A DNA stretch of 64,000 nt. Source: Anadara kagoshimensis. Taxonomy: Eukaryota > Mollusca > Bivalvia > Arcoida > Arcidae. Shown piece after piece: positions 3,201-50,335 of the stretch. Both the position numbers and the translations under genes were made by a program. The notes beneath the pieces were generated by a model, which was given only the letters and a program-made list of their open reading frames with translations, was not told where the DNA came from and did not search any database. The DNA is taken from contig CM037865.1 in NCBI GenBank assembly GCA_021292105.1, positions 67,018,630 through 67,082,629 on the forward strand, written 5' to 3'. Within the stretch, counting starts at the first letter, position 1, and each line of letters starts with the position of its first letter.

Positions 3201-6200
3201 TTTAGATACCATGTCAGTGATTTTTATTCCATGTGGCGATATTGTTATAGCAACCTTCTGTAGTTTTTTACCCATGGCTTTTGCCTGTAAAATAAAATAA
3301 ATTAATCTAAATATTCATACATCTGGGGAAACAACACAAAAAATTATATTCCTTATTTTAAAAATAATAAATTTCTTGCCAACACTATATGCACTGACTT
3401 GGGATTACCGGGTAGTTACACATGGCCTCATACCTTCCTTGTACATGTACTACTGATTTTTTTCTAGTTACAGTTTATGTTTTCAAGAAGGAATCTTAAC
3501 TCTTATATTTTCCTGTCGACAAAAGGCAGTTTAAATGCAAATGAGTTATTTAATATGAAAAATTAAATATTCATGAACTCTTTATTTTGGACATTGTACT
3601 AAGGTGATATAATGGTCAAGGTAGCAGGAAACTATGTTTCCATTCCTGGTAGCCAAAATCGCCATTGGCTACTAATTTCTGAGGAATTCTTTCAAAAAGT
3701 AACCTATTTTAGCAAATTTGTGGAAAAATACTTTAAAAAGGACTATATTTTCACAAATTTTGGAAATTTGGCTACTAATTATTTTAAATTTATGGAAACC
3801 TAGAGGAAAACATAAAACCCTTGTAGATGTTAAGGACAGGTGTATTTGGCTCTCAAAAAACAGTTTTAGTTTCATACTTGCTGCTTACTTATTTATTTTA
3901 TTATTAAAATTTATCTTCTTGAAAATTTACTGAAAGGGCTGTAAATGAAGTGGTCAACACCAATGTTATATTTTTTCATCAAATCTTCACTTTTACATTA
4001 ATATATATGTATTAACTTGTTTCTGTTAAAACATTTTCAAGTGGTTTTAGTTTAGATATATCTTCTGTATAAATTTGATATACAATTTATAAATGTGAGG
4101 GCTAGAACCTTAATACGTCTACCATGACTGTATACAGTAGATAATAAAGTAGCTATAAACCTGCTTCCTGTTACATAACAGTAATTATACAGTTAATTAT
4201 AAAACAAAGTATATATTACTTCTTGTTTCTAGGTACTTCCTTTTTCTTCTAACCCCGGAAAGTACTTATAAAAGTTTGATAACACTTTAAAATAGGTCCA
4301 TACAACAACCAATAAGAGGGTGAAAAATCATGACATTTCAAATCATGACAACTTAAGCTAGATAGGAGGTGCTTACACTTCCGGATCACCCATCCTCACT
4401 TCCCTGTTGGATGTTCAAGCGCTTTACTTGATTTGCAAGTTTTCAAAGTTTTTACTGTGATTTGGATATGGAGCAGTATGTTTGTTTTTGATTCTCTTAT
4501 CAATGCTGTTATAAACTTCCACGATTGTCATATCTGATATGATCTCAAATATATACATGTATTGTGTTTCATGTTGGATATATTGAGTCTTTGGATCTTT
4601 TCTTAAGAATTAATTTCATAACTTTTTTATACCAAGTCTGAGACCTCATCATTATTGTAGCTACTTGTAGACATGGTTACCTTGCATTGCAGATCATATA
4701 TCACGTACATAAAATCATCTAAATACATGTGTCAACATCACAGTAGACAACATTCACACTGTTAGTGTTATTTAAAAGTACATCACAGCAGATACTGATA
4801 AGCCCTGACAATTTCCTATATTTGCCCAATCATTATCCAACATTAAAATAAATCAGATATACTCAAGTGTCAGTGTCTGTGCATGTCATACATGTACTCT
4901 ATGTTCATAGGTCCTATCAGCAAAGTTTGAAGTATTTTTAAAGTTTTACTTTAATTTTACATGACTAAGCAGTCGTTTCGGAATACGATTTTTAATTAGT
5001 AGTGCTTAGATCAAAATTGTGAAACCAAATTTTTTTCAGTTTCAATATAAAAAATAACCAGGATACAGATAAAATAGTTACCATGGAAATTATATTTTGT
5101 ACAGCCTTTGAACTAGCCCCATTTCCGTAACTTTCCCCGTCATTTGCCTCTTCTACTAGGGTTTGACCAATGTACTTCATATAAAATGTTATACCATCAT
5201 TGACTGCCTCCTTGTTCTCACTCCATCCTTCTCCTAGTTCTGAAATATAATAACAGGGCGAATTTTAAGGATTTGTTCTTATACAAAAATAAAGGCCAGG
5301 CTTTCACAAACATTGCTTTACTAGGAATTGGGTCCAAATAACAAAATCTTTCTTAACTTGGACAAGGTGTTTGCCAAATTTAAAAATTTAAATCTGGCTC
5401 AGACCCAAAATTGATCTCTAATTTTTTTATTCCATTAGATCTTTTTACATTTGCACCATTCACAAATTTAATGGTCCAATGAACACAACCTCGCCTAAGT
5501 GCAGTGGTCTGGGACCTACAAACAGTAGGCTCTAACTGCAACTGCTGATTTGACTGACCAGTGTGTTTTGATATCATACCAGAAATATTCTCTATAGGAA
5601 TTTAGGATAATATTATAAATATAATACACATATGTATTTAAAAGTATATTTTATTCAGTTAGATAGTTTCTCTCCTATGTTTGGTCTGTTTGTTCTGTCT
5701 GACTCACACACAACAACTAGGCCTATCATGCGACTAGCTCCAGACTTATCTTGGGGCCACACTTGTTACTTCAAAATCTTCTGAATAAAACAAGAGGCCC
5801 ATGGGCCTGATATGCTCACCTGATAACTAATGGCTAGCTGATAAGTTTAAAGAACACATAAATACTAAACCCCATTGACTTTTTTCTTTACATCATGATA
5901 ACCATTGTATCAATACCTACAACATTCTAATATACATGCCTATACAAAAATGTTATAGTTTTCGAGATAATTAACCATTTTGGTATTGTTTTGCATCAGT
6001 GACCTTGACCTTTGAACCCATGACCTTTTTCTATACATCAAAATGATCGTTGTATCAATACCTACAACATTCTAATATACAAGCTATAAAAAAAGTTTAT
6101 AGTTTTCGAGATAATTAACCATTTCGGTATTGTTTTGCATCTGTGACCTTGACCCTTGAACCCATGACCTTTTTCTATACATCAAAATGATCGTTGTATC

Positions 6201-7946
6201 AATACCTACAACATTCTAAATATATGCCTATACAAAAAGTTTATAGTTTTTGAGATAATCAACCATTTTGGTATTGTTTTGCATCTGTGACCTTGACCTT
6301 TGAACCCATGACCTTTTTCTATACATCAAAATGATCGTTGTATCAATACCTACAACATTCTAATATACATGCCTATACAAAATGTTTATAGTTTTCGAGA
6401 TAATTAACCATTTTGGTTTTGTTTCGCATCTGTGACCTTGACCTTTGAACCCATGACCTTTTTCTATACATCAAAATGATCATTGCATCGATACCTACAA
6501 CATTCTAATATATATGCCTATACAAAATGTTTATAGTTTTCGAGATAATTAACCATTTCGGTATTGTTTCGCATCTGCGACCTTGACCTTTGAACCCATG
6601 ACCTTTTTCTAGACATCAAAATGATTGTTGTATCAATACCTACAACATTCTAATATACATGCCTATACAAAAAGTTTATAGTTTTCGAGATAATTAACCA
6701 TTTCAGTATTGTTTCACATCTGTGACCTTGACCTTTGAACCCATGACCTTTTTCTATACATCAAAATGATCGTTGTATCAATACCTACAACATTCTAATA
6801 TACATGCCTATACAAAATGTTTATAGTTTTTTAGATAATTAACCATTTCGGTATTGTTTCGCATCTGTGACCTTGACCTTTGAACCCATGACTTTTTCTA
6901 TACATCAAAATGATCGTTGTATCAATACCTACAACATTCTAATATACATGCCTATACAAAATGTTTATAGTTTTTAGATAATTAACCATTTCGGTATTGT
7001 TTCGCATCTGTGACCTTGACCTTTGAACCCATGACCTTTTTCTATACATCAAAATGATCGTTGTATCAATACCTACAACATTCTAATATACATGCCTATA
7101 CAAAAAGTTTATAGTTTTCGAGATAATAATTATAATCAGAGGTAAAAAAAATTAGGTCACGACCTTCACAATCGACCTTGACCTCATTTTGAAGATACTA
7201 ACAAGAAGATGTCGAAACTGAAAACCCTATGTCATTATCTGGTCAAATAGTCAAGTTATAACAGTTTGAAGCTATTTTACGATTTTTTCAAAATTAAACG
7301 CAAAAACGCGTAACCTATTTTTTATCCGAATTTCACAAAATGAACAAACTATAGGCTTAAGACCCTAGAGAAGCCAAATATCACATCAGATTTTTTCTCC
7401 AATCATTGGTTTTGGAGAAGAAGATTTTTTAAGATTTTTGCACCCCTAGGTCACCTTGACCTAGTTATGGTAGCCATAGCAACGCCACGAACAAATCTGA
7501 ATTGCACCGGCCCATATATACTTCTGACAAAGTTTCATTAAAAACTGTCCAGTAGTTTCAGAGGAGAAGTCGAAAATAGGTGTTAACGACGCACACACGC
7601 ACACACGCACACACGCACACACGCACATACACACGCTGCGCTATGCCATAAGCTCACATGACCTTCGGTCAGGTGAGCTAAAAAACTCCACTACATAGGA
7701 GCATTATGTAATTAAAACAAATATTAAGACAAGGACAATCCTGTGATATTAACAATAGGAGCAAATTTGTGTTTTGTCGCCAAGCCCAAAAATCCCATTC
7801 ATAAATTTACAGGTGTAAATATTTCCGATAGTAGGGTAACAACATAAAACCACAATTTTAAACTTACTCGTATGGCGGGATTTCTTGTTCGACTGTTCAC
7901 GGAACAAATTTGGACTCTTTCTCATAGCTCGACGTAAAACTTCCAT
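219..7946 (-). CDS. LDLRAP1: Low-density lipoprotein receptor adapter protein 1 (ARH), 5' six coding exons, C-terminus off the window
   Basis: Coding exons read on the minus strand are 7946-7868, 5239-5082, 3284-3172, 2223-2109, 1439-1344 and 315-219. Each internal boundary has an AG acceptor and GT donor, and phases join without a break (79+158+113+115+96+97 bases, 219 codons plus one base). The start is the ATG at 7946, opening MEVLRRAMRKSPNLF, comparable to the short basic leader of vertebrate ARH. Residues about 30-185 form a PTB/PID domain: RHTKLGEGW, then FYMKYIGQTLVEE, KAMGKKLQKVAITISPHGI, YRISFCSADKTHDKVF, CHAFLCAKRKIAQAVTLTV, AFELA. In the known family this domain binds the NPxY motif in LDL-receptor tails, while a clathrin box and AP-2-binding segment lie nearer the C-terminus. 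Those last parts (human protein about 308 aa) would lie left of base 219, where a GTATGT donor ends the last visible exon. That exon (KQSNEQSKPKTN onward) is polar and linker-like. GULP/CED-6 is the nearest alternative family; the CHAFLCAKRK and SFCSADKTHDKVF segments favour ARH. Confidence 0.9.
650..672. repeat. Poly-A run
   Basis: An uninterrupted run of about 23 A lies in an LDLRAP1 intron (316-1343). The rest of this intron is AT-rich and shows no coding signal. Confidence 0.9.
2368..2560 (+). mobile_element. tRNA-derived SINE-like relic in LDLRAP1 intron
   Basis: The segment has a good RNA polymerase III B-box-like string (TAGGTTCGAATCAGG, near 2388) followed by GTGGTCTTCTCTGGGTACTG and GTTTCCTTTATCATCC. 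That resembles the GGGTACTCCGGTTTCCTCC block common in animal SINE bodies. No clean A box or target-site duplication is visible, so the boundaries are approximate. It lies between exons 2223-2109 and 3284-3172. An almost perfect palindrome (GGGAGTCCTTAGGACTCCC, 2558-2576) follows. Confidence 0.5.
4365..4412 (-). repeat. Copy 1 of a dispersed GGAAGTGAGG...TCCGGAA motif
   Basis: Read on the minus strand this contains AGGGAAGTGAGG, TGATCCGGAAG, then TAAGCACCTCCT. The same order of blocks occurs at 21985-22035, 41645-41702 and 61738-61795 on the plus strand. It sits in the LDLRAP1 intron between exons 5239-5082 and 3284-3172. Family and function are unknown. Confidence 0.6.
5789..7680. mobile_element. 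Non-autonomous repeat element with inverted ends, filling most of LDLRAP1 intron 1
   Basis: The left end reads AAGAGGCCCATGGGCC then GCTCACCTGA. The right end reads TCAGGTGAGCTAAAAA, so GCTCACCTGA and TCAGGTGAGC form short inverted ends. Inside are a tandem array of about 145-bp units and, near 7590-7625, an ACGCAC microsatellite. No ORF of note is present. The ends resemble a very abundant bivalve repeat family (recognised from general knowledge, not a search). A second end of the same family, inverted, is at 60535-60570. Confidence 0.7.
5880..7125 (+). repeat. Eight-copy tandem array, unit about 145 bp, with GTGACCTTGACCTTTGAACC
   Basis: The marker GTGACCTTGACCTTTGAACC, or a one-base variant, begins at 5999, 6143, 6287, 6432, 6577, 6722, 6867 and 7010, giving a 143-145 bp period. 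Between markers the conserved text includes CTATACATCAAAATGATCG, CCTACAACATTCTAATATA and GTTTATAGTTTTCGAGATAA. Copies differ by only a few bases, so the array is fairly young or homogenised. The array is inside the repeat element in LDLRAP1 intron 1. Confidence 0.92.
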
Positions 7947-12194: not shown

Positions 12195-15100
12195 TCATTC
12201 ATACATATGTTGATACATTTCTTGACTGAGACGTATATAATCAGCTTTTTCTGAAGGTGTCATTTTTGCTACCATGTCGTCCGTAACCTCATGCAGTGGT
12301 ACTTTTGTATGTCCTATAGTAACCATAACAGCCTCTTCATCATCATCACTCTCCATTTCTTCAACAGCTGTAACCAAAAATAAAACAGAGTCATTTAACC
12401 ATGGATATATAAAACAGTCATGACACACTCAATGTCTCATATAAAAAGCACAGGAAGAAAAATATTAAAAATACATTGAATTATCTCCCTTTGTCTACAG
12501 TGTACTCAAGGATGGAACTAGACATAATACAAGTTTCATGATTAAAATTATCTAAAACTTAAAATGTATAATGTACAAAAGGGAAGAAGAAAAGAAAAAT
12601 GTACAAAAAGGTAAGAAGAAAAGACAAATGCTGTCATTTAAAATGACAGATGGTAGAAATATAAATAGTCAACTGGAAAATTTTTGTGCAAGTGCATTTT
12701 TGTGAGAAGCACATTTCAAAATAAAATCAATTATGGAAGTTTTATTTTTACATCATGTTACTATCATAAATTTATTTAGAAATTAAAACAAATGTGGAAA
12801 TTTCTAGAATCACAGTACATGTATTGAAATATTTACAAATAAACACCAGCTTTGTATGAAATAGCTGTAAAATATTTTTATAGGCTGCATGAACATGAAG
12901 CAGTTATAATCCTAGTTTTACAATGGCCTTACTTGAACTTGTACCCTGAATTTCCTAACTCAGCAAAAAGCCTCTGCAAGCAGTTTTATTTTAGAAATCA
13001 TTGTTCATTATTGGAAAGAGATTATTAACTATAATAGGTTGTTGGCTGTTTATTATTATTATATAGTAATATATGTATGAAAAATTGAAACCTAGACTCG
13101 ATAAAGAATTTTTACACTGAGACACTGACGCTGATTCCAAAGCTAGTGAACGATGGCATTTATCTTTCATATGCAAAGTAGATGTCTGTTAATATGCAAA
13201 ATGTTTATTGCAATACATGTTTTACCATTTGTAGCAAAAGAAGGCTTTTTGGAAGCTTCATCATCCTCGCTGTCACTACTAGAATCATCACTTCCTGCAC
13301 CAGGAATTGTTGGAGCTGCAGGTCCACCTTTTTTCTCATGAATAAACAAAAGGGTTTCTATCTCGTTTACGTTTGTACGAGATGTCGGTTCTACCTGAGA
13401 GGGACCAGCTCTTTCTTTATCAAGCTGAAATAACAAAATCGATAATGATTATTAACCTAAAAAGAGTCCAATGAAAGCCTGTAACACTCACCTGGCAAAA
13501 AGAGGTACAAATCTATACCTGTATTTCACTTAGATTTTCTATTTATAACAATCGAATCAAATATTCTAAGAAACAATCCATTGCACATTCATATACATTT
13601 ATATACCAAACATGAACTAAATCAGTGAATAAGTAAATGTGTAAAACCCTTTTTGTGTTTTGAGAAATCGCAAAAAATATCATCTTATTTCAAGTTATTA
13701 GCATGTTCAGCTAATGATAATGCCAAAAAAATGTTCATGAAAACGCTATCATATACATTAAATTCCTATACACCCACTGTCTATATATAAATTTTGAACT
13801 AAATTGGTTAAAAATAAACCTGTAATTCAGGTAACTATGATTTTGAATGTGGGTCAAGACTCAAGGGCAACCAGGTTCACAAAAGTATAAGAGCTTTACA
13901 CACTAAAACTATGTATAAAGTTTCAACCATTCAGGCTTGAGATATCTCAAAGTTATACTTCTCCCGGTCACTGTGACCTTGAATGATGGTCAAGGTCATC
14001 CAGCTTCTGAAACTTGGTAGAACTTTATGCATTTATACCATATATATCTTCTGCATGAACTTAGGCGAGTAAAGGATTATACAGATTGGGGAAGGATACT
14101 GAATTCATTACCTGATCATTAGTTTCCATAGGTACCCCATCAATGGTACTCTCCACCATCCATACTGGTCTCTCTTTAACTGTATTGGCATCCTTATTTT
14201 TCTCTGCTTCATCTCCCATTGATATTGTAACTGTACTCTCTGTGAATCCATAATCGATACCCCTGGTGGCATCCCCACTCCAAACCATCTTGTCTCCATC
14301 TTTCTGGCCTTTATTTGGATTATAAACTCTACTGCAAAAATATAAAAGATTCCATCATAAATTTGTTAATTTTTAAGAACTGTATGTATAGTTTATAAAT
14401 TCTGCAAAGATTAGGGAGATAGCATTTTTTGCATATCAGATTGAAAAATCTATAAAAATAGTGACAGATATTTCCAGCTTACACCCCTTGTGCAATAAAC
14501 GGTAGCCTACACACTCCTTTTCAAACTAAGTTTTGTCATTGAAATTAGAGATGTAGCAATGGTTGAGAACATGTTAAATTGCCCTTTTTATTGAAATTTT
14601 GCATTTTGTGGCCCTAAATTTGATCTATGTTCAATATGTATAATGGGTATCAGGGTAGTAAATATATGCTCAAAACAAGAATAACAAAGGGATAAAATTA
14701 TCTAGTATATACAAACTTTTTACTATGTTTGATGTCTGTGGGTTCAGGTTCCATGAGCTCTGGTGCTAGTTTTAAGTTCTCACAATCACTAAGCAACTCA
14801 TACACTGGTTGTATCTGCTCATTAAACTTTGCTAACAATGTACGAGCATCTTTCTTAGGCATGGCACTTTCATCTTCTTCCACCTCTGCCTGACAAAAAG
14901 TACATTTGTACATCTGTGCCATTGGATCAAACAATTCAAATGTATCTAAATCTGTAAAAGTCTTCAAACATTCTGGACATTTGAAGGATGCACGACTTGT
15001 ATTATCTCTTTCTTCTGTTTCTATCTTACGTCGGACATGATCAAGCTTATACTTCACAACATTTACAAACACTTGGTAGTTTATGAAATAATAATTATGC

Positions 15101-15366
15101 CTTGTTGATCTCCCTTCTTCGTCTGTTTCCACTCGTAGTCTTACTTTAAGAAATTTGTCACTTTTCAGTGTATTTATAAGTGCTCTTAACTGTTTTCTAT
15201 CAAATTGGAGAAGTTCAATCATATCATCTTCTTTCATACATGGGTTTCTCACAAGGATATCCATAATGATTGCATGTTCCATGCTGTAGAAACCACGTGC
15301 AATCAATCTTGCGAGTCTTTTCAGTGCCTCAGGCACCTCAGTTAACATATCTGGTTCAATCATCAT
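12195..15366 (-). CDS. GTF2E1: General transcription factor IIE subunit 1 (TFIIE-alpha), complete coding region in four exons
   Basis: Exons on the minus strand are 15366-14717, 14331-14112, 13424-13226 and 12367-12195. AG/GT borders and phases are consistent, and the joined frame has 413 codons then TGA (human protein 439 aa). TFIIE-alpha works with TFIIE-beta in the RNA polymerase II pre-initiation complex, recruiting and regulating TFIIH. Visible landmarks: an N-terminal winged-helix region (about 8-100) with [25 protein letters not shown] and HNYYFINYQ; a C4 zinc ribbon with Cys130, 133, 155 and 158; the [19 protein letters not shown] segment just after it; [19 protein letters not shown]; a Ser/Asp-rich acidic stretch; and an acidic tail ending MYQHMYE. 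The first donor (GTTTGT at 14716-14711) is non-consensus after GT, but the join gives [13 protein letters not shown] and keeps frame. The start [12 protein letters not shown] matches the family N-terminus. An acceptor at 15399-15398 shows that the 5' UTR continues in an upstream exon not identified here. Confidence 0.95.
13840..14045. repeat. Possible dispersed repeat in GTF2E1 intron
   Basis: The stretch has wording typical of bivalve repeats (AAGTTTCAACCATTCAGGC, GTGACCTTGAATGATGGTC, AAGGTCATCCAG) and no coding signal. GTGACCTTGA and TCAAGGTCA form a short inverted pair. No second full copy is in the window, so its repeat status is inferred. Confidence 0.35.
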
Positions 15367-22337: not shown

Positions 22338-23938
22338 AAGCCCCATTTATACGGCGAGAATTGCATACCTAAGTATTTTTACTCATATGTAAATTTACTT
22401 ATGTAAGCAAAAGTATATTTTGCTTTGCGTTCATACATAATTTATGTACCATAAGTAAATTTGAAGTTTTCAACCAATTTTGGATAACTTTCATTCTGAA
22501 CATTGAACAGTGTTGACTTGATTATCAGATAAGAACGTTTCCTTACAATTTAAGCACCGATTTGATACTGAGCTATTATAATGACAAAGGAGCAGTTCTA
22601 CTTGGTGATCCGGCATATCTGTCATATACCAGTTTTTGAATTTTATCATAAAATACATTAAAAAATATTATGTGACATATCCTTTAAAGACTTGCTTTGT
22701 CAAGCCTTATACAAACAAACAAAATCTTACACCAGTGCAGAACACATTTATATGCCGTCTAGTTAGGGTAGAACGAAACTGGATCTTTGATCTTTTTGGG
22801 TTGCTTGAAATGCCCATTGTGATGTTTGCAATAAAGGATTGATGTCCATGTCGTGTTTGCTTGTTCTGTAAAAGGAGCTTGTGTTGTTCCCCATAACATA
22901 ACATATATCGGATATTTAGATTAGCCCATGTCTCCTAGAACCCAGTCTGGGCCCCAAAATGTTTACACATTTTAGCTATTTATTATATTAAAACTTCTTT
23001 TTTTAACTCAGCTGGACCCCTAACTCAAATTAGTTAAGCTTCATCCCTGTATATGAAGCTGCAAATTAAGTCTTTAGGGATCTGTCGAATGTTTTTATTG
23101 AACTTGATGGTGAAAATTATTTTAGTGATGTTGAAGATGATGATGCTTGTAATATTTGTTCTCCCAAACACTTCGTGACGACATGGCATCTCCTTTCATG
23201 GACAATTCATTGTCAAATTTGTAAAAGTAAATTTTCTTTACATTCTGTGGTTGGCTTTTGTTGCTCAAGCACTTTCTCTTTGAAAACTAGTAAAATTTTA
23301 AATTTTGGTGCCAGTTTGTCACTAGTTTTTGTGCTTTTGTCAAATAAATCTATTTCAATTACAACTTTTGATCTTTATTAGATAATAATTACAAATCAAC
23401 GAGGACAGTGGTGGTTAATAGTGGTTGGCTTCTTTAACCGCTATGATTGTAACACCATATGTGGTAAGTGGGGTTCCCTTACAATTGGCACCTGTTGGTT
23501 AGCTTGATGTCAATACAATGGGATGTATGTAATGTTAATCTGTGACATTGTATATCAGTGGACAACACTATTAAACATTTTTTCTGGTACAAGGCAGATT
23601 ACAAACACCCATATTCACTCATGCACCACATGGACTTGAACGAACATTAACCCATAGAAATAAATAACCTGGCATAAGCCCATGTGTTTAAAATTATGTG
23701 AGTAAATATTACTGTGCGTTCATACGACACTGTAGCAAAATTTGCATACCTTACTATAAAATACTCACATATTCTAGCAAATTTGCACTTGGTCCCTACT
23801 AGGTGCAAATTTACTTACATGAGTAAAATTTGCGTATATGCAAAGTTGTTCATACGACACAATTTGCATATGTGGGTAAATTTACATAAGAGTAAAAAAA
23901 TACTTAGGTATGCAATTCTCGCCGTAAAAATGGGGCTT
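22338..23938. mobile_element. TIR element 1 (ends AAGCCCCATTTATACGGCG)
   Basis: The left end AAGCCCCATTTATACGGCG followed by AGAATTGCATACCTAAGTA is matched in inverse by TACTTAGGTATGCAATTCTC, GCCGTA and TGGGGCTT at the right end. The inverted repeats continue for about 60 bp. The 1.6-kb interior has no convincing ORF. TTAA sits at the right border and TTAAGTCTCATTTATAC just upstream of the left border, suggesting a TTAA-type target but not proving it. It is immediately followed, head to tail, by element 2. Confidence 0.8.
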
Positions 23939-24471
23939 AAGTATTTTTACTCATATGTAAATTTACTTACGTAAGCAAAAGTATATTTTGATTTGCGTTC
24001 ATACATAATTTATGTACCATAAGTAAATGTGAAGTTTACAACCAATTTTGGATCATTTTCTTGTTCATTGAACAGTTTAGACTTGATTATCAGATTAGAA
24101 CGTTCCCTTTCTATTTAAGCACTGATTTGATACTGGACTATTGTAAGGACATTGAGCAGTGCTACTTGGTGATCAAGCATATCTGTTATATACCATTTTT
24201 TAAAATTAATCATAAAATCTATTCAAAAATGTTATATGACATATACTTTAAAGACTTTGTTTCCTAAGCATTATACAAACAAACCAAGTCTTACACCAGC
24301 ACAGAGTACATTTATCTACCTTCTAGTTAGGGTAGAACGACACTTGATCTTCGATCTCTTTAGGTTGCTTGAAATGCCCATTGTGATTTTTGCAAAAAAC
24401 GATTGATGTCCATGTTGTGTTTGCTTGCTCTGTAAAAGGAGCTTGTGTTGTTCCTTATAACATATATCAAG

Positions 24472-24738: not shown

Positions 24739-25471
24739 TCAAGGATTAAGATTAGGAGGGTCCTAGTAGCCCACGTTTTTTAAAACTCAGTATGGATCCC
24801 AAAATATTTACACATTTTAGCTATTTATTACATTAAAACTTCTTTTTTGAAGTAAGCTGGGCCCTAACTCAAAATAGTTAAGCTTCATCACTTTATATGA
24901 AACTGCAAATTAATTCTTTAGGAAAAGGTGGAATATTTTTATTGAACTTGATGGTGAAAATCATTTTGATGTTGAAGATGGTGATGCTTGTAATATTTGT
25001 TCTCACAAAACACGACATGGCATCTCCTTTCATGGACAAACCATGCTTTAAATTTTGTGATTGGGTTTTGTTGCTGCTTAAGCACTTTCTCTTTGAAAAC
25101 TAGTAAAGCATCAAATTTTGGTTACAGTTTGTCACTAGGTTTTGTGGTTTTGTTAAATAAATTTTTGTTACAACTTTTGATCTCTTTTTACTGGTCATTT
25201 ATTACAAACCAATATAGGCTGCGTAGACTAATAGTGGTTAGGCTCTTTAACATCTATGAGTTCGATCCCCGATTGTAACACCATGTGTTGAAAGTGGGTT
25301 TCCCTTACAATTGACACATGTTGGTTAGTTCGGTATCAATAATACAATGGGATGTATGTAATCTGTGATATTATATGTTAGTGGACCAACACTATTACAT
25401 AATGTTTTTGTGGTACAAGGCAGATTACAAACACACTCACATACTATAGCAAATTTGCATTTAGTCCCTAC

Positions 25472-28400
25472 TAGTCCGGTCTGTTAGCAACATAAATATG
25501 TACAATTGTGCAAAGTATGATACCAACATGAAACTTTCCATGAATACAGTTTGTTATGTCCTTAACAAAATTAGATATAGACCCAATCTCAAAAAGTCTC
25601 CGATTTCCGGTATGACGTCATCAATATTCATCCTTTATACAAGAAACTTCTTTAATTGTCATAAATTAAGTGTGGGCAGATGTGGCTTACTTGTCGGTTT
25701 ACAAATGCATTTTTATAGAAATATATATAGATAATTACATTTTCAACACATATGAATAAATATTTTAATTCAATTTTACACAAATTATTCATTTTTTGCA
25801 AATTTTAATACCATTAAAATACTACAAAGTATTATAATTATATTGTTTTGTATAGATAATTTCACCTGGTGATTACACAGAATATCCTTGGCGGTAATAC
25901 TTAATTCTCGGAAAAAAAAAATAAAAAATGAAATAAATAAAAAAAATAATTAGTCAATCAAATAATTAGTTAATTAATTAACAATTTAATGATAATAATA
26001 ATAATAAACAACGAAAAATATCCACCATTGTCATACATGGCGCACACAATTTAAGTGACTCTGATCTCAATATTTACATAATATCACAAAGTGTGTCTAA
26101 TGGGTCTCTATAATAGGCTATGGAAAGTACAAGAAAGTTGTTAAAGTGAACAAGACTTCAATAGTCTTGTGTATGGCATAGCTACTATGGATGTTTGCCA
26201 TGTTAACTATGCTAGATGGTTAGATACCATTTTTTCTCAAAACACTCAATGAACTTAACATTAGACATCCAGCAGTATTTGAAATGTTCAAGAAAGGGCA
26301 CTTTGTCACTCAGACAACTGTTCGACCGTTTTCTGCCATGTTAGATGGCCAAGCACATGAACAAAATAACAGAAATGTCAAATCAGAAGGAGGAGCTATA
26401 GGATTACTTAGCAATCCACAAGCTCTGCTACAATGGATGGTTGATGGGTCAGAAATTGGCAAGATTATTTCTGAATTTGAAACAGGAGCAGGGATGGATA
26501 TACCAAATGACGAATACCAACACCATCACGAGGCTTTTGATAAAAGATTCCAAAACCATGTTTTAAAAGTTGAAGAGGTAATGACTGATGAAGGAATTCT
26601 TTCGAAGAAGGTTCTCTCTGCTATCAGTTGCCTGTTAAAGAATTGTAGATGAAAAAGCATGTGATTCCGTAAAAATAGCCACAAAACTCGGGCAAAAAGA
26701 GTTTTTGTCATATTACAGAAACCGAACAGTTGGAGGGAAACATCTATCCATGATCCATTAAAAGAAACAATGTTCAATTTTTCAGAAAAAAAACTACCTT
26801 AGGAATGAGCAAAGGAAATGCAAAAATGTTTCCATTGAGAAAAGACTGCCAAGTTTTTTCTCATCTCTTAATTGCTTGCCAAACCAGACAAGGTGATCTT
26901 AGCGATTTTTTCAGTCACGAAAATCATCCATATCCACCATTTATATCTGAATATGAAAAAATAAGAAAAAGGAATAAATCAGCTGTTTGATTTGTCTATA
27001 AAACTATGGTAAAACTGAATTTACTACTCCAGCGACATCTGTTGTTATTATTGACGGGCCAGCAATTGTTCACATGACAAAGCCTAAAACCATGTGAAGT
27101 TTCAAAAACTATAGCAAGAATGTCTTTCAGTCCCTTATTTTGACTTATTTGAGAAATGCTGATAGAGTGGATATCATTTTTGATCTGTAACTTGACCATA
27201 GTCCTAAATCTGAGACAAAGGAACGACGTGGGACAGGAAGAAATTAAAGTGTCACCAACAACAATAATACCAAAAGACTAGAATGCATTTCTGAAGTTTA
27301 ACAGAACCAAGGAAAACTTTTTAAGTTGGTAGCAGAAGATTTAGTAAAGATAGATATTGAAAACAAGATAATTGTATGCACATATCTTGATAAAGTTATT
27401 TCATTAAACGCTTGACACTTCAGTTTCATCATCTTGTGGACACAGGAAGGCTGACACGAGGCTATTATTACAATAAAATTCTCATAAATTCAGTCGACTC
27501 TGATGTAGTTGCAATAGCACTGTATGCATTCCATTCGTTAAATGTAACAGAACTATGGATCGAAATTAGTACCGGAAAACACAGGCGGCATTTGCTAATA
27601 CATCTGTCCTGTCATACACTAACTGCTCCTCAGTTTTATTCCGGTATGCATTTACTGGATGTGAGACTTTGTCTTCATTTGTTGGACGTGGTAAGATGTG
27701 TGGGGAGTTGTTCCTGAAAGAACATTCCTGTTCATAACTTTGTGTAGCTGTCCACATGAAACACAGCATGGGATGTGTGGGAAGTTGTTCCTGAACTAAC
27801 ATTTCTGTTCATGACTTTGTGTAGCTGTCCGCATAAAATATCTAATCAATTATTTACCTTGTTGGAAAACACATTGTCTTGTTGTACGGTAGTACAAGTT
27901 CATCTGATTTGTAAATGAATGTTGCTAAACGTAAGTCAAAAATGAATCGTGCAATCGAAAACATACCACCAACAAAAGCAGCTCTTTTGCAACATTCGAA
28001 GTAAGCCATTTTGCAAACAGGTTTTATCTGGAGTCGGTGTCTTGTGAGAATGCCAGAAATACCAGATTTATGCTGCTGGAGTTTGAATAAAGGCGATAAA
28101 AGGTTTGTTTCCTCGTGGACAGATCTAGCTGAAGCTTCTCGTCACTGCTAAGAACTTATACACTGTTATTGCAAAGTAAGATGTGCAAAAAGGTGTAAAT
28201 GCATCAAATCTTCTTTAAAGTGCATACATTTGCGTGACTGTGGCCCTCAAGAGGATGATATTTAGTATGGGATTAGCCATGTGGAACATAATCTTTAGTT
28301 GCTAAAAGTACTGGTTTGTCTAGTTATCTGTTTTACCTGCTTAGATGCTTACATTTTCTAACTATATGTTCTTTTATTCATACTTGTGATATTTGATAAC

Positions 28401-28936
28401 TATAATAGGCAAAATCATTCCAAAAACTATGTCTTTGTCAGGGACAGAATTGTTTTATTAGAACAATTTGATTAGAATCTCGCATGCGCATTTATTTAAG
28501 TCAATATTTTTAATGGTTAAGAACATCATTTTGTACTATTAAACTTTGTCAAAGAAGTCTGCATTTTCTATCGAAATACGATAGTCGTAAACAATTATTA
28601 ACTTTGCGGCAGCCATTTTGAATTATGACGTCATACTAAAGTATAGGAAGTACCTAGATACAACCAGTTTAAAATTTTGTTAAAAATAACTTTGTTTAAC
28701 AATCCTGAAACACTCTATAAAGCGGAAAAACATTCTATATCCACTGAAATGTGATATTTTCAACTGTGTTTCCTTTCGACGGCAGCCATTTTGAAAAATG
28801 ACGTCATACGGAGAAATATGGTGCGAGCAAGTTGGGTCTATATCTAATTGTGATTGCAATAGTGCCAACTAATATTCCTGTAAGTTTCATGCTGGTATCA
28901 CATTTTGCACAATCTATGTGCTAACAGACCGGACTA
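25472..28936. mobile_element. 3.47-kb TIR DNA transposon, probably Academ-like, with decayed protein gene
   Basis: The left end TAGTCCGGTCTGTTAGCA and right end TGCTAACAGACCGGACTA are exact inverses. Similarity continues inward, including GATATAGACCCAA and TATGACGTCAT, for roughly 150 bp with mismatches. TAC flanks both sides (25469-25471 and 28937-28939). The unoccupied equivalent in element 1 (near 23795) reads CCCTACTAGGTG, which is what remains when the element and one TAC are removed. The interior holds a broken plus-strand gene (26180-28262). Academ transposons are described as having 3-4 bp duplications and encoding an XPG-type nuclease with a cysteine-rich zinc finger. The assignment rests on that fit and is inference. 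Confidence 0.8.
26180..28262 (+). pseudogene. Decayed transposon protein with XPG/PIN-like segments and C-terminal cysteine cluster
   Basis: Segments in order, each in an open or nearly open plus-strand frame: CHVNYARW (26195); NIRHPAVFEMFKKGHFVTQ through DGQAHEQNNRNVKSEGGAIG (26260-26652); VVIIDGPAIVHMTKPK (near 27038) then YLRNADRVDIIFD; NSVDSDVVAIALYAF (near 27490); FRYAFTGCETLSSFVGRGK (near 27640); and HCYCKVRCAKRCKC followed by KCIHLRDC (28160-28240). Acidic D and DxD positions in the middle resemble XPG/FEN-like nuclease cores, and the last part is a Cys cluster (C-x-C-x3-C-x3-C-x-C pattern). Many stops and frameshifts separate the segments, so no protein is made. It lies inside the TIR transposon and was presumably its transposition protein. 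The family is known to me from many invertebrate genomes as uncharacterised proteins. Confidence 0.7.
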
Positions 28937-29520
28937 TACTAGGTGCAAACTTACTCACATGAGTAAAATTTGCGTATGTCCAAAGTTGTTCATACGACAA
29001 AATTTGCATATGTGAGTAAATTTACATATGAGTAAAAATAGGTTTACAATTCTCGCCGTATAAATGGGGCTTTAGATAGATGACAGTCACATGGTCCCCA
29101 AATTTACGATGATATATTTAAAATCATACAGTTCTCACAAGAATGCTGAAAACCTACGAATTGTTATATATTGATATCATTTCGTAATGATGCTTTCAAT
29201 GTAGCATAGTGACTAACATAGTCATTTAAAAATCGCACGATTTAGCTGAAAATACACTTAATACCCTCCTCAGCGCAGCAAGTTTTTCCTTTGTTATTTT
29301 GGATTGTGATTTGAACATGAACTGGTATGTTTGTTTTCGATATATGGCTTGATGTTTTCCTAACTTGAAGGTTGACGCAATTCTAGAAAATTGCGCTGGA
29401 ATCTTTGCATAGCAAATGCATTGTAGTTGCGACGTAAACTTCAAAAACAAACCAACTTAATGTGAAGTTAAATCATCGAATAGACAACTAACAATATGTA
29501 CCGGTGTTTAAATATGTTTT

Positions 29521-29773: not shown

Positions 29774-31039
29774 TTAGGATTCGCCCGACTTCTCACACAT
29801 AGTTTTATTTTCATTGCCATGCCACCAGTCGTGAATATCTTCATAAACTCGTGGATATTTTTGCGGATTATTTAGATGTTTACATAGTTTACAAGTCACT
29901 AGAGAATCATGGAACATATGGTCTTCTTGTATGTGGTAATATTTATGCCATTTTTGATACTGGTTATATAATGTTAAGTTGTTAGCCAGTACTTTCATAT
30001 ATAATGCTAATGACTTTTTAGATGAGTATTTTCTAGCATCTATAAATGATTTTGGCGGCATATACAGATCATAATATGCACTACCACGGACTATAGGTAT
30101 TACTATTTGTCTTAAATTTACTAAAGCTTTTTCTGTTATATAATCCTGGCAAAATGAATTTTCAAAAGCTATATAAAACTTGTACTTTTCAGTAAGCATT
30201 TGTCTGCATTCTTCACCCCCAATACACCTTAACGAACCACAATTACCATAGACATCAATATCTGTATGTGCCTTAAGCGCATTAACATAATTTTCTCTAC
30301 GTGATGACGTCACACAATTACTGACAAACCATGCCGTAGAGTTTGTTTTATTTCTGAAAATTTCTGAAATATCTAAAGATTTGCCAAATTTTAGAGATGC
30401 ACCTTTTACTACAAAACGGTATGGTGCTACAAAATCGGAATCTCGTCTATATGTCAACGTCCAATTAATATCGTTCCTCCATCGTTCACTGGGGACCGTG
30501 GTGTGTACAGGTGATTCTATGTTTTCATATATCCAAATCTGATCTTTCACTTTCTTTGGTTTTTCTGGTAACCGTGTTCCTGTGAAAACAACGGCATCAC
30601 TTACTTCAAAATCACTTCTATCTGTAGAAAACTTACAGTTTTTATATTCGCATGAATCGAACGAATCACGTGACGAAAACGTCATCCATCCGGGTGGATT
30701 ATAATGTAGAATTATTTTAACTTTATTCTCTTCTTTGACATTGTTTTTAAATGTTGTATCTTTATTATCATTTTGTGGCGTTAATTTTGCAGTAGTCGAT
30801 GTTAAATTAACTTGTAGGCTTCTGGTAGAAAACGATTTTTGATTCCATTTACTCGTACGAGATAGTGTAGGCTCTTCAGTTGAAATCATACTAAGATTAG
30901 AAGAATTGTGAAATATTGACGGCATTATATCATGTAGAATTAATGTTTTATCATAATCCCGTAAATAAATTCTTGACCATCTACCAGCAATTAGAACTGC
31001 CCCGATGAATGAAATTCCGATAAGAGCCAACAACAGCAT
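29774..31039 (-). CDS. Alpha-(1,3)-fucosyltransferase-like, GT10 family, type II Golgi membrane protein
   Basis: Transfers fucose from GDP-fucose to N-acetylglucosamine-containing glycans in the Golgi lumen (family knowledge). From the ATG at 31039 the product is 421 aa. It has a hydrophobic signal anchor (about 2-18, LLLALIGISFIGAVLI) after no cytosolic tail, a stem rich in Ser/Thr/Asn (30-110), an N-terminal GT10 domain (DAVVFTGTRLPEKPK, IWIYENIESP, INWTLTYRRDSD at 190-202) and the catalytic C-terminal domain with KFYIAFENSFCQDYITEKAL (287-306), the GDP-fucose-binding signature. CKLC near 383 matches the usual C-terminal cysteines. Several N-glycosylation sequons are present. The frame stays open upstream to 31150, but only through an (AAAT)n microsatellite. 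A good acceptor (TTATTCTTTTAG) places an exon start at 31058, so the true N-terminus may include residues from an unseen upstream exon. The exact subtype is not determined. Confidence 0.9.
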   Translation of the reverse strand: MLLLALIGISFIGAVLIAGRWSRIYLRDYDKTLILHDIMPSIFHNSSNLSMISTEEPTLSRTSKWNQKSFSTRSLQVNLTSTTAKLTPQNDNKDTTFKNNVKEENKVKIILHYNPPGWMTFSSRDSFDSCEYKNCKFSTDRSDFEVSDAVVFTGTRLPEKPKKVKDQIWIYENIESPVHTTVPSERWRNDINWTLTYRRDSDFVAPYRFVVKGASLKFGKSLDISEIFRNKTNSTAWFVSNCVTSSRRENYVNALKAHTDIDVYGNCGSLRCIGGEECRQMLTEKYKFYIAFENSFCQDYITEKALVNLRQIVIPIVRGSAYYDLYMPPKSFIDARKYSSKKSLALYMKVLANNLTLYNQYQKWHKYYHIQEDHMFHDSLVTCKLCKHLNNPQKYPRVYEDIHDWWHGNENKTMCEKSGES

Positions 31040-31069
31040 TCGAAGTCTGTATGTAGATCTAAAAGAATA

Positions 31070-31074
31070 AATAA

Positions 31075-31121
<47 letters not shown>

Positions 31122-31142
31122 GTAAATAAATAAATAAATAGA
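31070..31142. repeat. (AAAT)n microsatellite at the fucosyltransferase intron border
   Basis: About 18 AAAT/AAGT tetranucleotides. On the minus strand it reads as an artificial repeated FIYL peptide in frame with the fucosyltransferase. Confidence 0.95.
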
Positions 31143-31249
31143 AATAACATTGAACAAATCTGTCCGTTCCTTAACGAAGATTTTGCTTATCATAAAATTG
31201 GTAATTTTTTGCAACATTTCGTGGTACTACATGTAAAAAGTTTTACTGT

Positions 31250-36849: not shown

Positions 36850-38265
36850 ATTGTCATTGACCAGGGCAACCAATAGAACGCCAATGTACGTCATGTCATT
36901 GACCAACTCAACCAATAGAACACCATTGTACGTCATTGACCAAATCAACACGGACAACACCAAAGTGCGTCGTGTCATTGACCAAGGCAACCAATGAAAC
37001 AACAATGTACGTCATGTCATTAAAGCAACACGAAGAACACAAATTATGTACGTCATGTCATTGACCAAAACAACACGGAAAACACCATTGTACGTCATGT
37101 CATTGACCAAAGCAAGCAATAGAACACTAATGTACGTCATGTCATTGGCCAAGGCAACCAATAGAACATCAATGAACGTCATGTCATTAACTAAAGCAAC
37201 ACGAAGAACACCAATGTACGTCATGTCATTGACCAAGGCAACCGATAAAACACCAATGTACGTCATGTCATTTACCAAGGCAACCAATAGAACAACCATT
37301 GTACGTGATGTCATTAACCAAATCAACAAGGAGAACACCAGTGTACGTCATGTCATTGCCCAAGGCAACTACTAGAACACCAATGTACGCCATGTCATTG
37401 ACAAAGGTATCACGGAGAACATCAATGTACGTCATGTCATTGATCAAGGCAACCAATAGAACACCAATGTACGTCACGTCATTGACAAAGACAACAAATA
37501 GAACACCAAAGTACGTCATGTCATTGACCAGGGCAACCAATAGGACGCCAATGTACGTCATGTCATTGACCAGGGCAACCAATAGGACGTCAATGTACGT
37601 CATGTCATTGACCAAGGCAATCAACAGAAACACTAATGTACATCATGTCATTAATAAAGGCAGCTAACAAAACAACAATATGCGTCATGTCATTGACAAA
37701 GGCAACCAGGAGAACAGCAATGTGTGTCATGTCATTGACAAAGGCAACCAACAAAACACTAGTTTTCGTCATTTCATTGCCAAATGCAACACGGACAACA
37801 CCAATGCACGTCATGTCATTGCCCACGTTAACCAAAAGAACACCAGTGTGTGTCATGTCATTGACTAAAGCAACCAATAGAACACCAATGTGCATCATGT
37901 CATCAACAAAGGCAACCAGGAGAAGAACAATGTACGTCATAACATTAACCAAGGCAACCAATAGAACACTAATTTACGTCATGTCATTGCCAAATTAAAT
38001 ACGGACAAGACCAATGCACGTCATGTCATTGACCAGGGCAACCAATAGAACACCAATGTACGTCATGTCATTGACCAAAGCAACCAATAGAACACCAGTG
38101 AACGTCATGTCATTGATTGACCAAGGCAACCATTAGAACACCAATGTACGTCATGTCATTGACCAAGGCGACCAATAGAACACCAAAGTACGTCATGTCA
38201 TTGACCAAGGTGACCAATAGAACACTAATGTACGCCAAGTCAATGACAAAAGCAACAAGTACAAC
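36850..38265 (+). repeat. 42-bp minisatellite array 1 (about 33 units)
   Basis: The unit core is TGTACGTCATGTCATTGACC followed by AAGGCAACCAATAGAACACC. Units are mostly 42 bp, exactly 14 codons, without stops. The plus strand reads as repeats of MYVMSLTKATNRTP and the minus strand as VLLVALVNDMTYIG, which accounts for ORFs of about 60-120 codons on both strands. Units vary by substitutions and occasional indels. It is not considered coding. Confidence 0.95.
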
Positions 38266-45329: not shown

Positions 45330-48300
45330 TTGTAATTGACCATGGCAACCAATAGAACGCCAATGTACGTCATGCCATTGACCAAGGCAACCAATAGAAC
45401 ACCATTGTACGTCATGTCATTGACCAGGACAACCAATAGAACACCAATGTACGTCATGTCATTGACCCGGACAACCAATAGAATACCAATGTACGTCATG
45501 TCATTGACCAGTGCAACCAATAAAACACCAATGTACGTTATGTCATTGACCAGGGTAACCAATAGAACGCCAATGTACGTCATGTCATTGACCAAGTCAA
45601 CCAATAGAATACCAATGTACGTCATGCCATTGACCAGAGCAACCAATAGAACACCAATGTACGTTATGTCATTGACCAGGGTAACCAATAGAACGCCAAT
45701 GTACGTCATGTCATTGACCAAGTCAACCAATAGAATACCAATGTACGTCATGCCATTGACCAGAGCAACCAATAGAACACCAATGTACGTTATGTCATTG
45801 ACCAGGGTAACCAATAGAACACCAATGTACGTCATGTCATTGACCAGGGCAACTAATAGAACAACAATAAACGTCATGTCATTAACTAAAGCAACACAGA
45901 GACGCCAATGTACGTCATGTCATTGACCCGGACAACCAATAGAATACCAATGTACGTCATGCCATTGACCAGTGCAACCAATAGAACACCAATGTACGTT
46001 ATGTCATTGACCAGGGTAACCAATAGAACGCCAATGTACGTCATGTCATTGACCAAGTCAACCAATAGAATACTAATGTACGTCATGCCGTTGACCAGAG
46101 CAACCAATAGAACACCAATGTACGTCATGTCATTGACCAGGGCAACCAATAGAACAACAATAAACGCCATGTCATTAACTAAAGCAACACAGAGACGCCA
46201 ATGAACGTCATGTCATTGATCATAGCAACCAATAGAACACCAATGTACGCGATGGTATTAACAAAGGCAACAAGGAGAACACTAATTTACGTCATGTCAT
46301 TGACCAAGACAACCAATAGAACACCAATGTATGTCATGTTATTGACAAAGGCAACCAATAGAACACAAATGTACGTCATGCCATTAACCAAAGCATCAAG
46401 GAAAACACCATTGTACGTCATTACATTGACCAAGGCAAGCAATAGAACACTAATGTACGTCATGTCATTGACCAAGACAACCAATAGAACATCAATGTAC
46501 GTCATGTCATTGACCAAGGTAACCAATAGAACAACAATATACGTCATGTCATTGACAAAAGCAACCAATAGAACGACAATATACGTCATGTCATTGACCA
46601 AATCAACACGGACAACACCAATGTACTTAATGTCATTGAACAAGACAACCGATAAAACACCAATGTACGTCATGTCATTGACCAAAACAACCAACAGAAC
46701 ACCAATGTACGTCATGTCATTGACCCGGACAACCAATAGAATACCAATGTACGTAATGCCATTGACCAGTGCAACCAATAGAACACCAATGTACGTTATG
46801 TCATTGACCAGGGTAACCAATAGAACGCCAATGTACGTCATGTCATTGACCAAGTCAACCAATAGAATACTAATGTACGTCATGCCGTTGACCAGAGCAA
46901 CCAATAGAACACCAATGTACGTCATGTCATTGACCAGGGCAACCAATAGAACAACAATAAACGCCATGTCATTAACTAAAGCAACACAGAGACGCCAATG
47001 AACGTCATGTCATTGATCATAGCAACCAATAGAACACCAATGTACGCGATGGTATTAACAAAGGCAACAAGGAGAACACTAATTTACGTCATGTCATTGA
47101 CCAAGACAACCAATAGAACACCAATGTATGTCATGTTATTGACAAAGGCAACCAATAGAACACAAATGTACGTCATGCCATTAACCAAAGCATCAAGGAA
47201 AACACCATTGTACGTCATTACATTGACCAAGGCAAGCAATAGAACACTAATGTACGTCATGTCATTGACCAAGACAACCAATAGAACATCAATGTACGTC
47301 ATGTCATTGACCAAGGTAACCAATAGAACAACAATATACGTCATGTCATTGACAAAAGCAACCAATAGAACGACAATATACGTCATGTCATTGACCAAAT
47401 CAACACGGACAACACCAATGTACTTAATGTCATTGAACAAGACAACCGATAAAACACCAATGTACGTCATGTCATTGACCAAAACAACCAACAGAACACC
47501 AATGTACGTCATGTCATTGACCAAGACAACCAATAAAACACCAATGTACGTCATGTCATTGACCAAAGTAACACGGAGAACACCAAAGTACGTCATGTCA
47601 TTGACCAAGGCAACTAACAGAACATCAATGAACGTCGTGTCATTGACCTAGGCAACCAATAGAACAACAATGTACGTCATTTCATTAACTACAGCAACAC
47701 GAAAAACACTAATGTACGTCATGTCATTGACCAAGGCAACCAATTAAACACCAATGTACGTCATGTCATTGACCAAGGCAACCAATTAAACACCAGTGTA
47801 CGTCATGTCATTAACCAAAGCAACAAGGAGAACAACAATGTACGTCATGTCATTGACCAATGCAACCGATAGAACACCAATGTACGTCATGTCATTGACA
47901 ACGACAACCAATAGAACACCAAAGTAAGTCATTTCATTGACAAAAACAACACGGAAACATCAATGTACGTCATGCCATTGATCAAGGCAAGCAATAGAAC
48001 ACTAATGTAAGCATGTCATTGACATAGGCAACAAATGGAACACCAAAGTACGTCATTATATTGACCAAGGCAACCAAGAGAAACACCAATGTACGTAATG
48101 TCATTGACCAGGACAACCAATAGAAAATTAACGAACGTCGTGTCATTGACCAAATCAACACGGGCAACACCAATGTACGTCTTGTAATTGACCAAGGCAA
48201 CCGATAGAACACCAATGTAAATCATGTCACTGACAAAGGTAACCAATAGAACACCAATGAACGTCGTGTCATTGAACTAGGCAACCAATATAACAACAAT

Positions 48301-50335
48301 GTGCGTCATGTCATAAACTACAGCAACACGAAAAACACCAATGTACGTCATGTCATTGACCAAGGCAACCAATTAAACACCAATGTACGTCATGTCATTG
48401 ACCAAGCAACCAATTAAACACCAATGTACGTCATGTCATTAACCGTACAAAACGGAGAACTCCAATGTACGTCATGTCATTGACCAAGGCAACCGATAGA
48501 ACACAAATGTACGTCATGTCATTGACAAAGGCAACCAATAGAACACCAAAGTACGCCATGTCATTGACAAAGACAACACGGAAACATCAATGTACGTCAT
48601 GCCATTGATCAAGGCAAGCAATAGAACACTAATGTAAGCATGTCATTGACATAGGCAACAAATGGAACACCAAAGTACGTCATTATATTGACCAAGGCAA
48701 CCAAGAGAAACACCAATGTACGTAATGTCATTGACCAGGACAACCAATAGAAAATTAACGAACGTCGTGTCATTGACCAAATCAACACGGGCAACACCAA
48801 TGTACGTCTTGTAATTGACCAAGGCAACCGATAGAACACCAATGTAAATCATGTCACTGACAAAGGTAACCAATAGAACACCAATGAACGTCGTGTCATT
48901 GAACTAGGCAACCAATATAACAACAATGTGCGTCATGTCATAAACTACAGCAACACGAAAAACACCAATGTACGTCATATCATTGACCAAGGCAACCAAT
49001 TAAACACCAATGTACGTCATGTCATTGACAAAGGCATCCAATAGAACACCAATGTACGCCATGTCATTGACAAAGACAACACAGAGAACATCAATGTACG
49101 TCATGCCATTGATCAAGGCAACCAAAAGAACTCTAATGTACGTCATGTCATTGACAAAGGAAACAAATAGAAGACCAAAGTACGTCATGCCATTAACCAA
49201 AGCAACAAGAAAAACACCATTGTACGTCATGTCATTGACCAAGGCAAGCAATAGAACACCAATGTACGTCATGTCATTGACCAAGATAACCAATAGAACA
49301 CCAATGTACGTCATGTTATTGATCAAGGTAACCAATAGAACAACAATATACGTCATGTCATTGACCAAATCAACACGGACAACACCAATGTACGTCATGT
49401 CATTGACCAAGACAACCGATAGAACACAAATGTACGTCATATCATTGACCAAGGCAACCCACAGAACACCAATGTACATGATGTACGTCATGTCATTGAC
49501 AAAGGCAAAAATAGAACTTCAATATACGTCATGTTATTGACCAAAATAACACGGAGAACACCAAAGTACGTCACGTCATTGACCAAGGCAACCAACAGAA
49601 CATCAATGAACGTCGTGTCATTGACCTAGGCAACCAATATAACAACAATGTGCGTCATGTTATTAACTACAGCAACAAGAAAAACACCAATGTATGTCGT
49701 GTCATTCACCAAGGCAACAAATTAAACACCAATGTACGTCATGTCATTGACCAAGCAACCAATTAAACACCAATGTACGTCATGTCATTAACCGTACAAA
49801 ACGGAGAACTCCAATGTACGTCATGTCATTGACCAAGGCAACCGATAGAACACAAATGTACGTCATGTCATTGACAAAGGCAACCAATAGAACACCAAAG
49901 TACGCCATGTCATTGACAAAGACAACACGGAGAACATCAATATACGTCATGCCATTGATCAAGGCAAGCAATAGAACACTAATGTACATCATGTCATTTA
50001 CAAAGGCAACAAATAGAACACCAATGTATGTCATGTTATTGACCAAGGCAACCAACAGAACACTAATTTACGTCATGTCATTGCCAAATGCAACACGGAC
50101 AAGACCAATGCTCGTCATGTCATTGACCAGGGCAACCAATAGAACACCAATGTACATGTACGTCATGTCATTGACCAAAGCAAACTATAAAACACCAATG
50201 AACGTCATGTCATTGATTGACCAAGGCAACCAATAAAACACCAAATGCACGTCATGTCATTGACCAAGGTGACCAATACAACACTAATGTACGTCATGTG
50301 AATGACCAAAGCAACAAGTACAACATTACATCGCA
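45330..50335 (+). repeat. 42-bp minisatellite array 2 (about 119 units) with higher-order repeats
   Basis: Same unit as array 1. Blocks of many units are themselves duplicated: 45908-46704 repeats almost exactly as 46705-47501 (797-bp period, about 19 units), and 47690-48320 repeats as 48320-48950 (627-bp period, about 15 units). ORFs of up to 266 codons on the plus strand and 226 on the minus strand are by-products of the stop-free 14-codon unit. Confidence 0.95.

Follow-up and report, generated by a model that had tools for sequence, protein, structure and literature searches.

The window analyzed here, i.e., the whole 64,000-nucleotide stretch of the Anadara kagoshimensis genome, contains a DNA transposon of 3,465 bp (positions 25472-28936), the ends of which are 18-bp exact inverses, TAGTCCGGTCTGTTAGCA, located at 25472-25489 on the forward and at 28919-28936 on the reverse strand. 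When up to three mismatches were allowed, these two sequences were the only matches to the end in the window, compared to a mean of 0.01 matches in shuffled windows (n=100), none of which had two. Beyond the exact ends, the inverted similarity runs on imperfectly to about 140-150 bp, with the left terminal inverted repeat (TIR) occupying 25472-25621 on the forward strand (the first 17-18 bp exact, then imperfect to ~150 bp) and the right TIR, the inverse of the left end, occupying 28798-28936 on the reverse strand. The triplet TAC flanks the element on either side (25469-25471 and 28937-28939), representing a 3-bp target-site duplication that was assigned based on the reading of the flanks and on an empty site in the same window. 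That is, the joined flanks align uninterrupted through CCCTACTAGG to a relative of the insertion site at 23763-23941 on the forward strand (88%, 179 bp; TAC at 23797-23799), and a second block of the joined flanks matches 23363-23608 at 74%, with 154 bases of the relative between its two blocks being without counterpart. These alignments indicate that the insertion hit one copy of an older duplicated stretch. The preliminary description of this locus had proposed a TIR DNA transposon with the same boundaries, with TAC duplicated and the empty site placed at about 23795, all of which were borne out.

The interior of the window copy was read against L019, a full-length copy of 5,927 bp from the same genome (described below). 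Two deletion junctions are present on the forward strand: one at 26077/26078 (approximately positions 550-1280 of L019 absent), which is private to the window copy among the 33 copies compared, and one at 26187/26188, left by a 1,772-bp deletion (positions 1392-3163 of L019) whose end points are identical in 25 of the 33 copies. Downstream of the latter junction and on the same strand lie a relic of the C-terminal part of a DDE-like region (26188-26900, with an AHEQNN motif and a 122-aa open frame at 26284-26652), a relic of a FEN1/XPG-like nuclease domain (26903-28148, with stops and frame breaks common to sister copies) and, by sequence reading, a relic of a C-terminal cysteine cluster (~28149-28263). 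The protein relics noticed previously were recovered by tblastn with the nuclease-like protein of L019, which found 26903-27406 and 27858-28148 (65% identity in both cases), with stops. What could not be seen at that stage is that the window copy is deleted for much of its 5' part, so that the beginning of the DDE-like region is absent as well.

Several other features are found in the window. An open frame for a family 10 fucosyltransferase on the reverse strand (29774-31150; PF00852, E 1.5e-52) has its stop ~0.8 kb from the right end of the transposon, and an open frame with a TFIIE alpha domain is located at 14698-15366, also on the reverse strand (PF02002, E 5.9e-27). A 42-bp minisatellite unit forms two arrays (36852-38256, 33.5 copies; 45331-50315, 118.5 copies) that contain open frames on both strands, and additional tandem arrays occupy 5871-7127 (145-bp unit) and 56928-57438 (45-bp unit). 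Finally, an endonuclease-reverse transcriptase-like fragment at 51680-52579 on the reverse strand matched PF14529 below the curated cut-off (E 1.6e-4).

Copies of the element across the host genome

A search of the host genome (1.115 Gb, 36 contigs) for the exact end returned 79 copies (39 + 40), compared to 1 + 1 for the reversed-pattern control. Pairing by hand resolved the 79 ends into 34 inward-facing pairs, 3.5-9.9 kb apart and including the window copy, and 11 single ends. The element counts reported here refer to the 33 elements with both ends read (window included), with L041 left out as its sequence stops before the right end. Exact 3-bp duplications flank 28 of these 33 elements, whereas shuffles of the right flanks gave a mean of 1.5 and a maximum of 7 (n=10,000), and one more element, L015, has a 4-bp duplication (CAAG). 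The presence of 3-bp duplications among same-ended copies had been named beforehand as a check on the preliminary description, and it is confirmed by these counts. L030 and L038 are without duplication. L010 and L011 also show no duplications; their matching triplets occur crosswise, as expected if recombination between both copies inverted the intervening DNA, and their flanks are partly similar to each other. As a separate observation, L010 and L011 (C3:10759962-10776936) lie in inverse orientation ~9 kb apart and differ by 1 substitution in 4,013 compared bases, with 13 gap columns.

The 28 duplications represent 22 different triplets, with the TWA form seen in 2 of the 28, so the element has no fixed target. 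This diversity bears on whether the family could belong to another superfamily with 3-bp duplications such as PIF/Harbinger or CACTA, for which the length of the duplication, taken alone, would be suitable. However, PIF/Harbinger elements produce TWA duplications as opposed to the many triplets observed here, and CACTA ends start with CACT whereas those of the present family begin with TAGTCC. We give hardly any credence to an assignment to either of these superfamilies.

The single ends, among the matches listed, comprise four with a protein match within 6 kb and seven without. Nine of the 11 were examined by sequence at least partly (L001 and L002 with 1.5 kb; L042-L048). Based on blastn, L043, L045, L047 and L002 contain all or some of the nuclease-coding part, L001 has the element's left part in the 1.5 kb read, the aligned element sequence in L042, L044 and L048 is limited to 89-312 bases of the end, and L046 shows no element sequence. 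In L042, the left end of the element is present in two direct copies (501-807 and 4971-5277) that are separated by ~4.5 kb, in which nothing else of the element was detected.

Protein content and architecture of the family

The nuclease-coding DNA of L019 was matched by blastn in all 33 elements, with a gap of 463 bp in L023 and L034 and of 292 bp in L013. The search for intact same-ended copies, which the preliminary description had proposed, was successful with respect to length, providing the 34 pairs and two full-length copies among the 33 (L019 and L020, ~5.9 kb), but not with respect to coding capacity, as one unbroken reading frame was seen in none of the 33. In L019, which is flanked by a CTT duplication, the 1,088-aa ORF1 overlaps an open frame of 411 codons, with the latter containing the motifs noticed originally in the forms IIDGPAI, TVDSDVVAI and FTGCDT. 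In both L019 and L020, the DDE-like region immediately precedes the nuclease-like part, and what lies between ORF1 and the nuclease frame is a private frame break in the former and a stop in the latter. In a more distant relative, L053 (43% identical), a single open frame of 802 codons covers the later DDE-like region, the nuclease-like domain and the cysteine cluster, in this order, from which we infer that the ancestral protein was one chain. Candidate DDE sites, assigned by eye, are kept in L019, L053 and L054 (the D of CDQP, the D of LDHVHYARW and the E of AHEQNN), and nine cysteines of the C-terminal cluster are alignable in L053, L054 and L020.

The nuclease-like protein of L019 was also searched by tblastn against the genome, with 101 of 1,106 candidates scored and at least 137 matches listed; hence, the following counts are lower bounds. 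Among the matches listed, 31 of the 34 pairs have a match, and the other three (L023, L034 and L036) hold nuclease DNA by blastn. At least 51 listed matches lie in no pair nor near a single end: 6 at 70-92% identity (in three places) and 45 at 32-49%, the latter probably representing other families. Some of the 32-49% matches sit in open frames of 779-1,072 codons; examples of such relatives with long frames are located at C5:5883400-5889900, C5:30090516, C6:51465561 and C19:22969542. No relatives of the protein were found in viral contigs or prokaryotic genome contigs by pattern-prefiltered scans, or in phages by tblastn.

The location of these 45 distant matches outside TIR pairs and single ends (among the matches listed), together with the fact that the window copy retains the nuclease relic and not the first part of the DDE-like region, would be in line with the nuclease-like gene being a host gene that was captured by an unrelated TIR transposon. 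The full copies L019 and L020, however, have the DDE-like region directly upstream, and one open frame in L053 spans both the end of the DDE-like region and the nuclease domain, so the joining of the two parts predates this family; we consider capture of a host gene highly improbable. The earlier suggestion that the protein is a transposition protein agrees with the occurrence of its coding DNA inside all 33 elements, and needs to be modified in that the nuclease-like part, given the L053 frame and the DDE-like region upstream in L019 and L020, is not by itself the transposase. Two main corrections to the preliminary description result: the nuclease-like part comes together with a DDE-like region, and the class to which the window copy belongs had already lost part of this region.

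Comparison of the nuclease-like domain with FEN1/XPG

XPG uses seven active-site carboxylates according to PMC7515719. The nuclease-like domain has seven acids (D51, D94, E185, D187, D211, D213 and D270) that are invariant in L019, L020, L053 and L054 and match, in order and with similar spacing, seven FEN1 carboxylates (D27, D80, E152, E154, D173, D175 and D236) shared without exception by the 49 archaeal FEN1 proteins compared, with D187 replacing an E. Column shuffles fitted the carboxylate spacing in 0 of 20,000 cases with narrower windows and in 8 of 20,000 with looser windows, numbers to be read with the windows having been chosen after the positions were seen, the seven acids having been picked from 16 invariant ones, and FEN1 having five further conserved acidic columns.

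Searches for profile similarity were negative. Alignment of the nuclease-like domain against the 49 archaeal FEN1 proteins with hhalign gave a probability of 0.1, compared to 0.2 for the reversed control, with a thin query profile (Neff 1.8). Both L019 frames were without a Pfam match of any kind at E values up to 1, helicase included, L019 was also without match in NCBIfam, and sequence searches against PDB gave nothing meaningful. The eEF2 matches in the PDB search (E 0.24 or worse) and the Pfam models Med28 (E 0.29) and RNaseH pPIWI_RE (E 0.078), both below cut-off, were disregarded. Of the XPG/PIN-like character proposed originally, the part that stands is the seven carboxylates in order, while homology to XPG was undetected by Pfam, PDB and profile-profile comparison (49 archaeal FEN1). 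The domain is likely, albeit not proven, to be FEN1/XPG-like: it resembles these nucleases in having seven active-site carboxylates that are ordered alike and spaced similarly, and differs from them in the undetected profile similarity and in being a domain of a mobile-element protein with a cysteine cluster.

Deletion classes, coding decay and probable recent movement

The 1,772-bp deletion of the 25-copy class takes out the first part of the DDE-like region, the CDQP motif included. A second deletion class lacks positions 2070-3186 of L019 (4 copies of 33) and a third lacks positions 821-1321 and 1392-2198 (2 copies of 33). Two single-base frame breaks in the nuclease part are common to all 23 members of the 25-copy class included in the indel count, which left out L011 (near-identical to L010) and L024; one further frame difference seen in all 23 is a private break of the reference, L019, and was not counted as shared. 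In-register stops in the nuclease part occur at codon 337 in 24 of the 33 copies and at codon 363 in 25, and L024 is diverged and shares few of these stops. Since the frame breaks and in-register stops are shared, the 25-copy class, L024 aside, was already coding-dead when it spread. Most codon differences between the two full-length copies, L019 and L020, change the amino acid (19 of 24 in the nuclease domain and 25 of 34 in ORF1), as in decaying copies. In addition, a stretch of ~77-87 bp in the nuclease-coding part (positions 4731-4816 of the L019 element) is tandemly repeated in many copies, e.g., at least five times at 3173-3490 of L043, and a 77-bp insertion at this stretch is present in 13 of the 23 class members.

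Between L026 and L027, two members of the 25-copy class, 4,530 compared bases show 3 substitutions, with 33 gap columns; the two have different duplications (ACA and TCA), and no similarity was detected in their 500-bp flanks. The simplest reading is a recent movement, probably in trans. Alternatively, the near-identity of L026 and L027 might be driven by gene conversion between old copies. The window copy groups in the tree with L018 (support 0.967) and L040 (1.0) and has a terminal branch of 0.65%. It is a broken, recently inserted copy, and, because it has lost much of its transposase region, another element probably moved it.

The three deletion classes (25, 4 and 2 of the 33 copies) each lose part of ORF1 and retain the right end together with the bulk of the nuclease-coding DNA, although the latter is dead in the largest class owing to its shared stops and frame breaks, and all 34 exact-TIR pairs are at least as long as the window copy (3,465 bp). 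Both observations count in favor of a cis requirement for the 3' half of the element in movement, even where this half has ceased to code for protein. The argument is weakened by the sample being composed of exact ends, and the single ends L042, L044 and L048 could represent truncated copies, or short ones whose second end has changed, which lowers what we would otherwise have rated as an unlikely hypothesis to a very unlikely one.

Probable family assignment and proposed mechanism

AcademX elements encode a nuclease of the XPG type, and Academ elements carry a Cys8 finger. In PMC10045372 (citing Kojima 2020), AcademX is assigned 3-4 bp duplications and AcademH 9-10 bp, a difference that seems tied to the encoded nuclease vs. 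helicase, and PMC5199201 gives 3 bp for Academ. The present family shares with AcademX, as described, the duplication length (28 of 33 with 3 bp and one with 4 bp) and carries a putative nuclease, and the C-terminal cluster with its nine alignable cysteines is a candidate counterpart of the Cys8 finger; AcademX has no helicase, and likewise the two L019 frames have no Pfam match to one (E up to 1). The window copy itself departs from such elements in being internally deleted and coding-dead. AcademH, which would be part of the same superfamily as our family if the AcademX reading is right, encodes a helicase and has 9-10 bp duplications according to the same source, as opposed to 3 bp here, with 9-bp flank identity found in 0 of 33 elements and no helicase match. 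Among the molluscs covered by PMC10294476, Academ is reported almost exclusively from bivalves, and the mean length of its curated elements is 5,565 bp; the 5,927 bp of L019 is consistent with, and close to, this mean. The Academ-type identity guessed in the preliminary description gains from the fit of duplication length and putative nuclease to these published features (PMC10045372 and PMC5199201). Our best reading is that the family looks like AcademX.

A distinct origin needs to be weighed against this reading, namely that a PIN/FEN-like nuclease was acquired by a DDE lineage separate from, and independent of, Academ. In its favor, neither the DDE-like nor the nuclease-like part scores above the cut-off of any library profile, and the likeness to AcademX is by description; on the other hand, the duplication length and the nuclease both fit the AcademX description in PMC10045372, and the size is near the bivalve average in PMC10294476. 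We regard a separate lineage as unlikely and favor AcademX.

Judged from the L053 frame, the protein would be one chain with Cys/His motifs at its N-terminus, followed by a DDE-like catalytic region and a FEN1/XPG-like domain, and with the cysteine cluster at its C-terminus. The DDE region may cut and join the TIR ends with a stagger of 3 bp, rarely 4 bp, the nuclease-like domain may trim or resolve flaps at the cut ends, and the cysteine clusters may bind the ends or the target; catalysis by either the DDE-like region or the nuclease-like domain is putative. Several observations weigh against this reading: the negative profile and PDB searches, DDE sites assigned by eye, the missing duplications of L030 and L038, the broken frames of all 33 copies, the decay-like codon differences between L019 and L020, and the seven single ends for which no protein match was listed within 6 kb. 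Taken as a whole, we consider it quite probable that the window copy is a non-autonomous, coding-dead deletion derivative of an AcademX-like DNA transposon, moved in trans, whose full-length relatives would have encoded the one-chain protein deduced from L053 and used the mechanism outlined above.

Implications

The family looks like a kind of element already described. A protein that was unrecognized here by Pfam and NCBIfam is now tied to a transposon family with tested boundaries, which allows related proteins in animal genomes to be annotated as belonging to transposons. The family also provides a case of apparently very recent movement of coding-dead copies, and a protein combining nuclease-like and DDE-like parts, the division of labor between which is open to testing.
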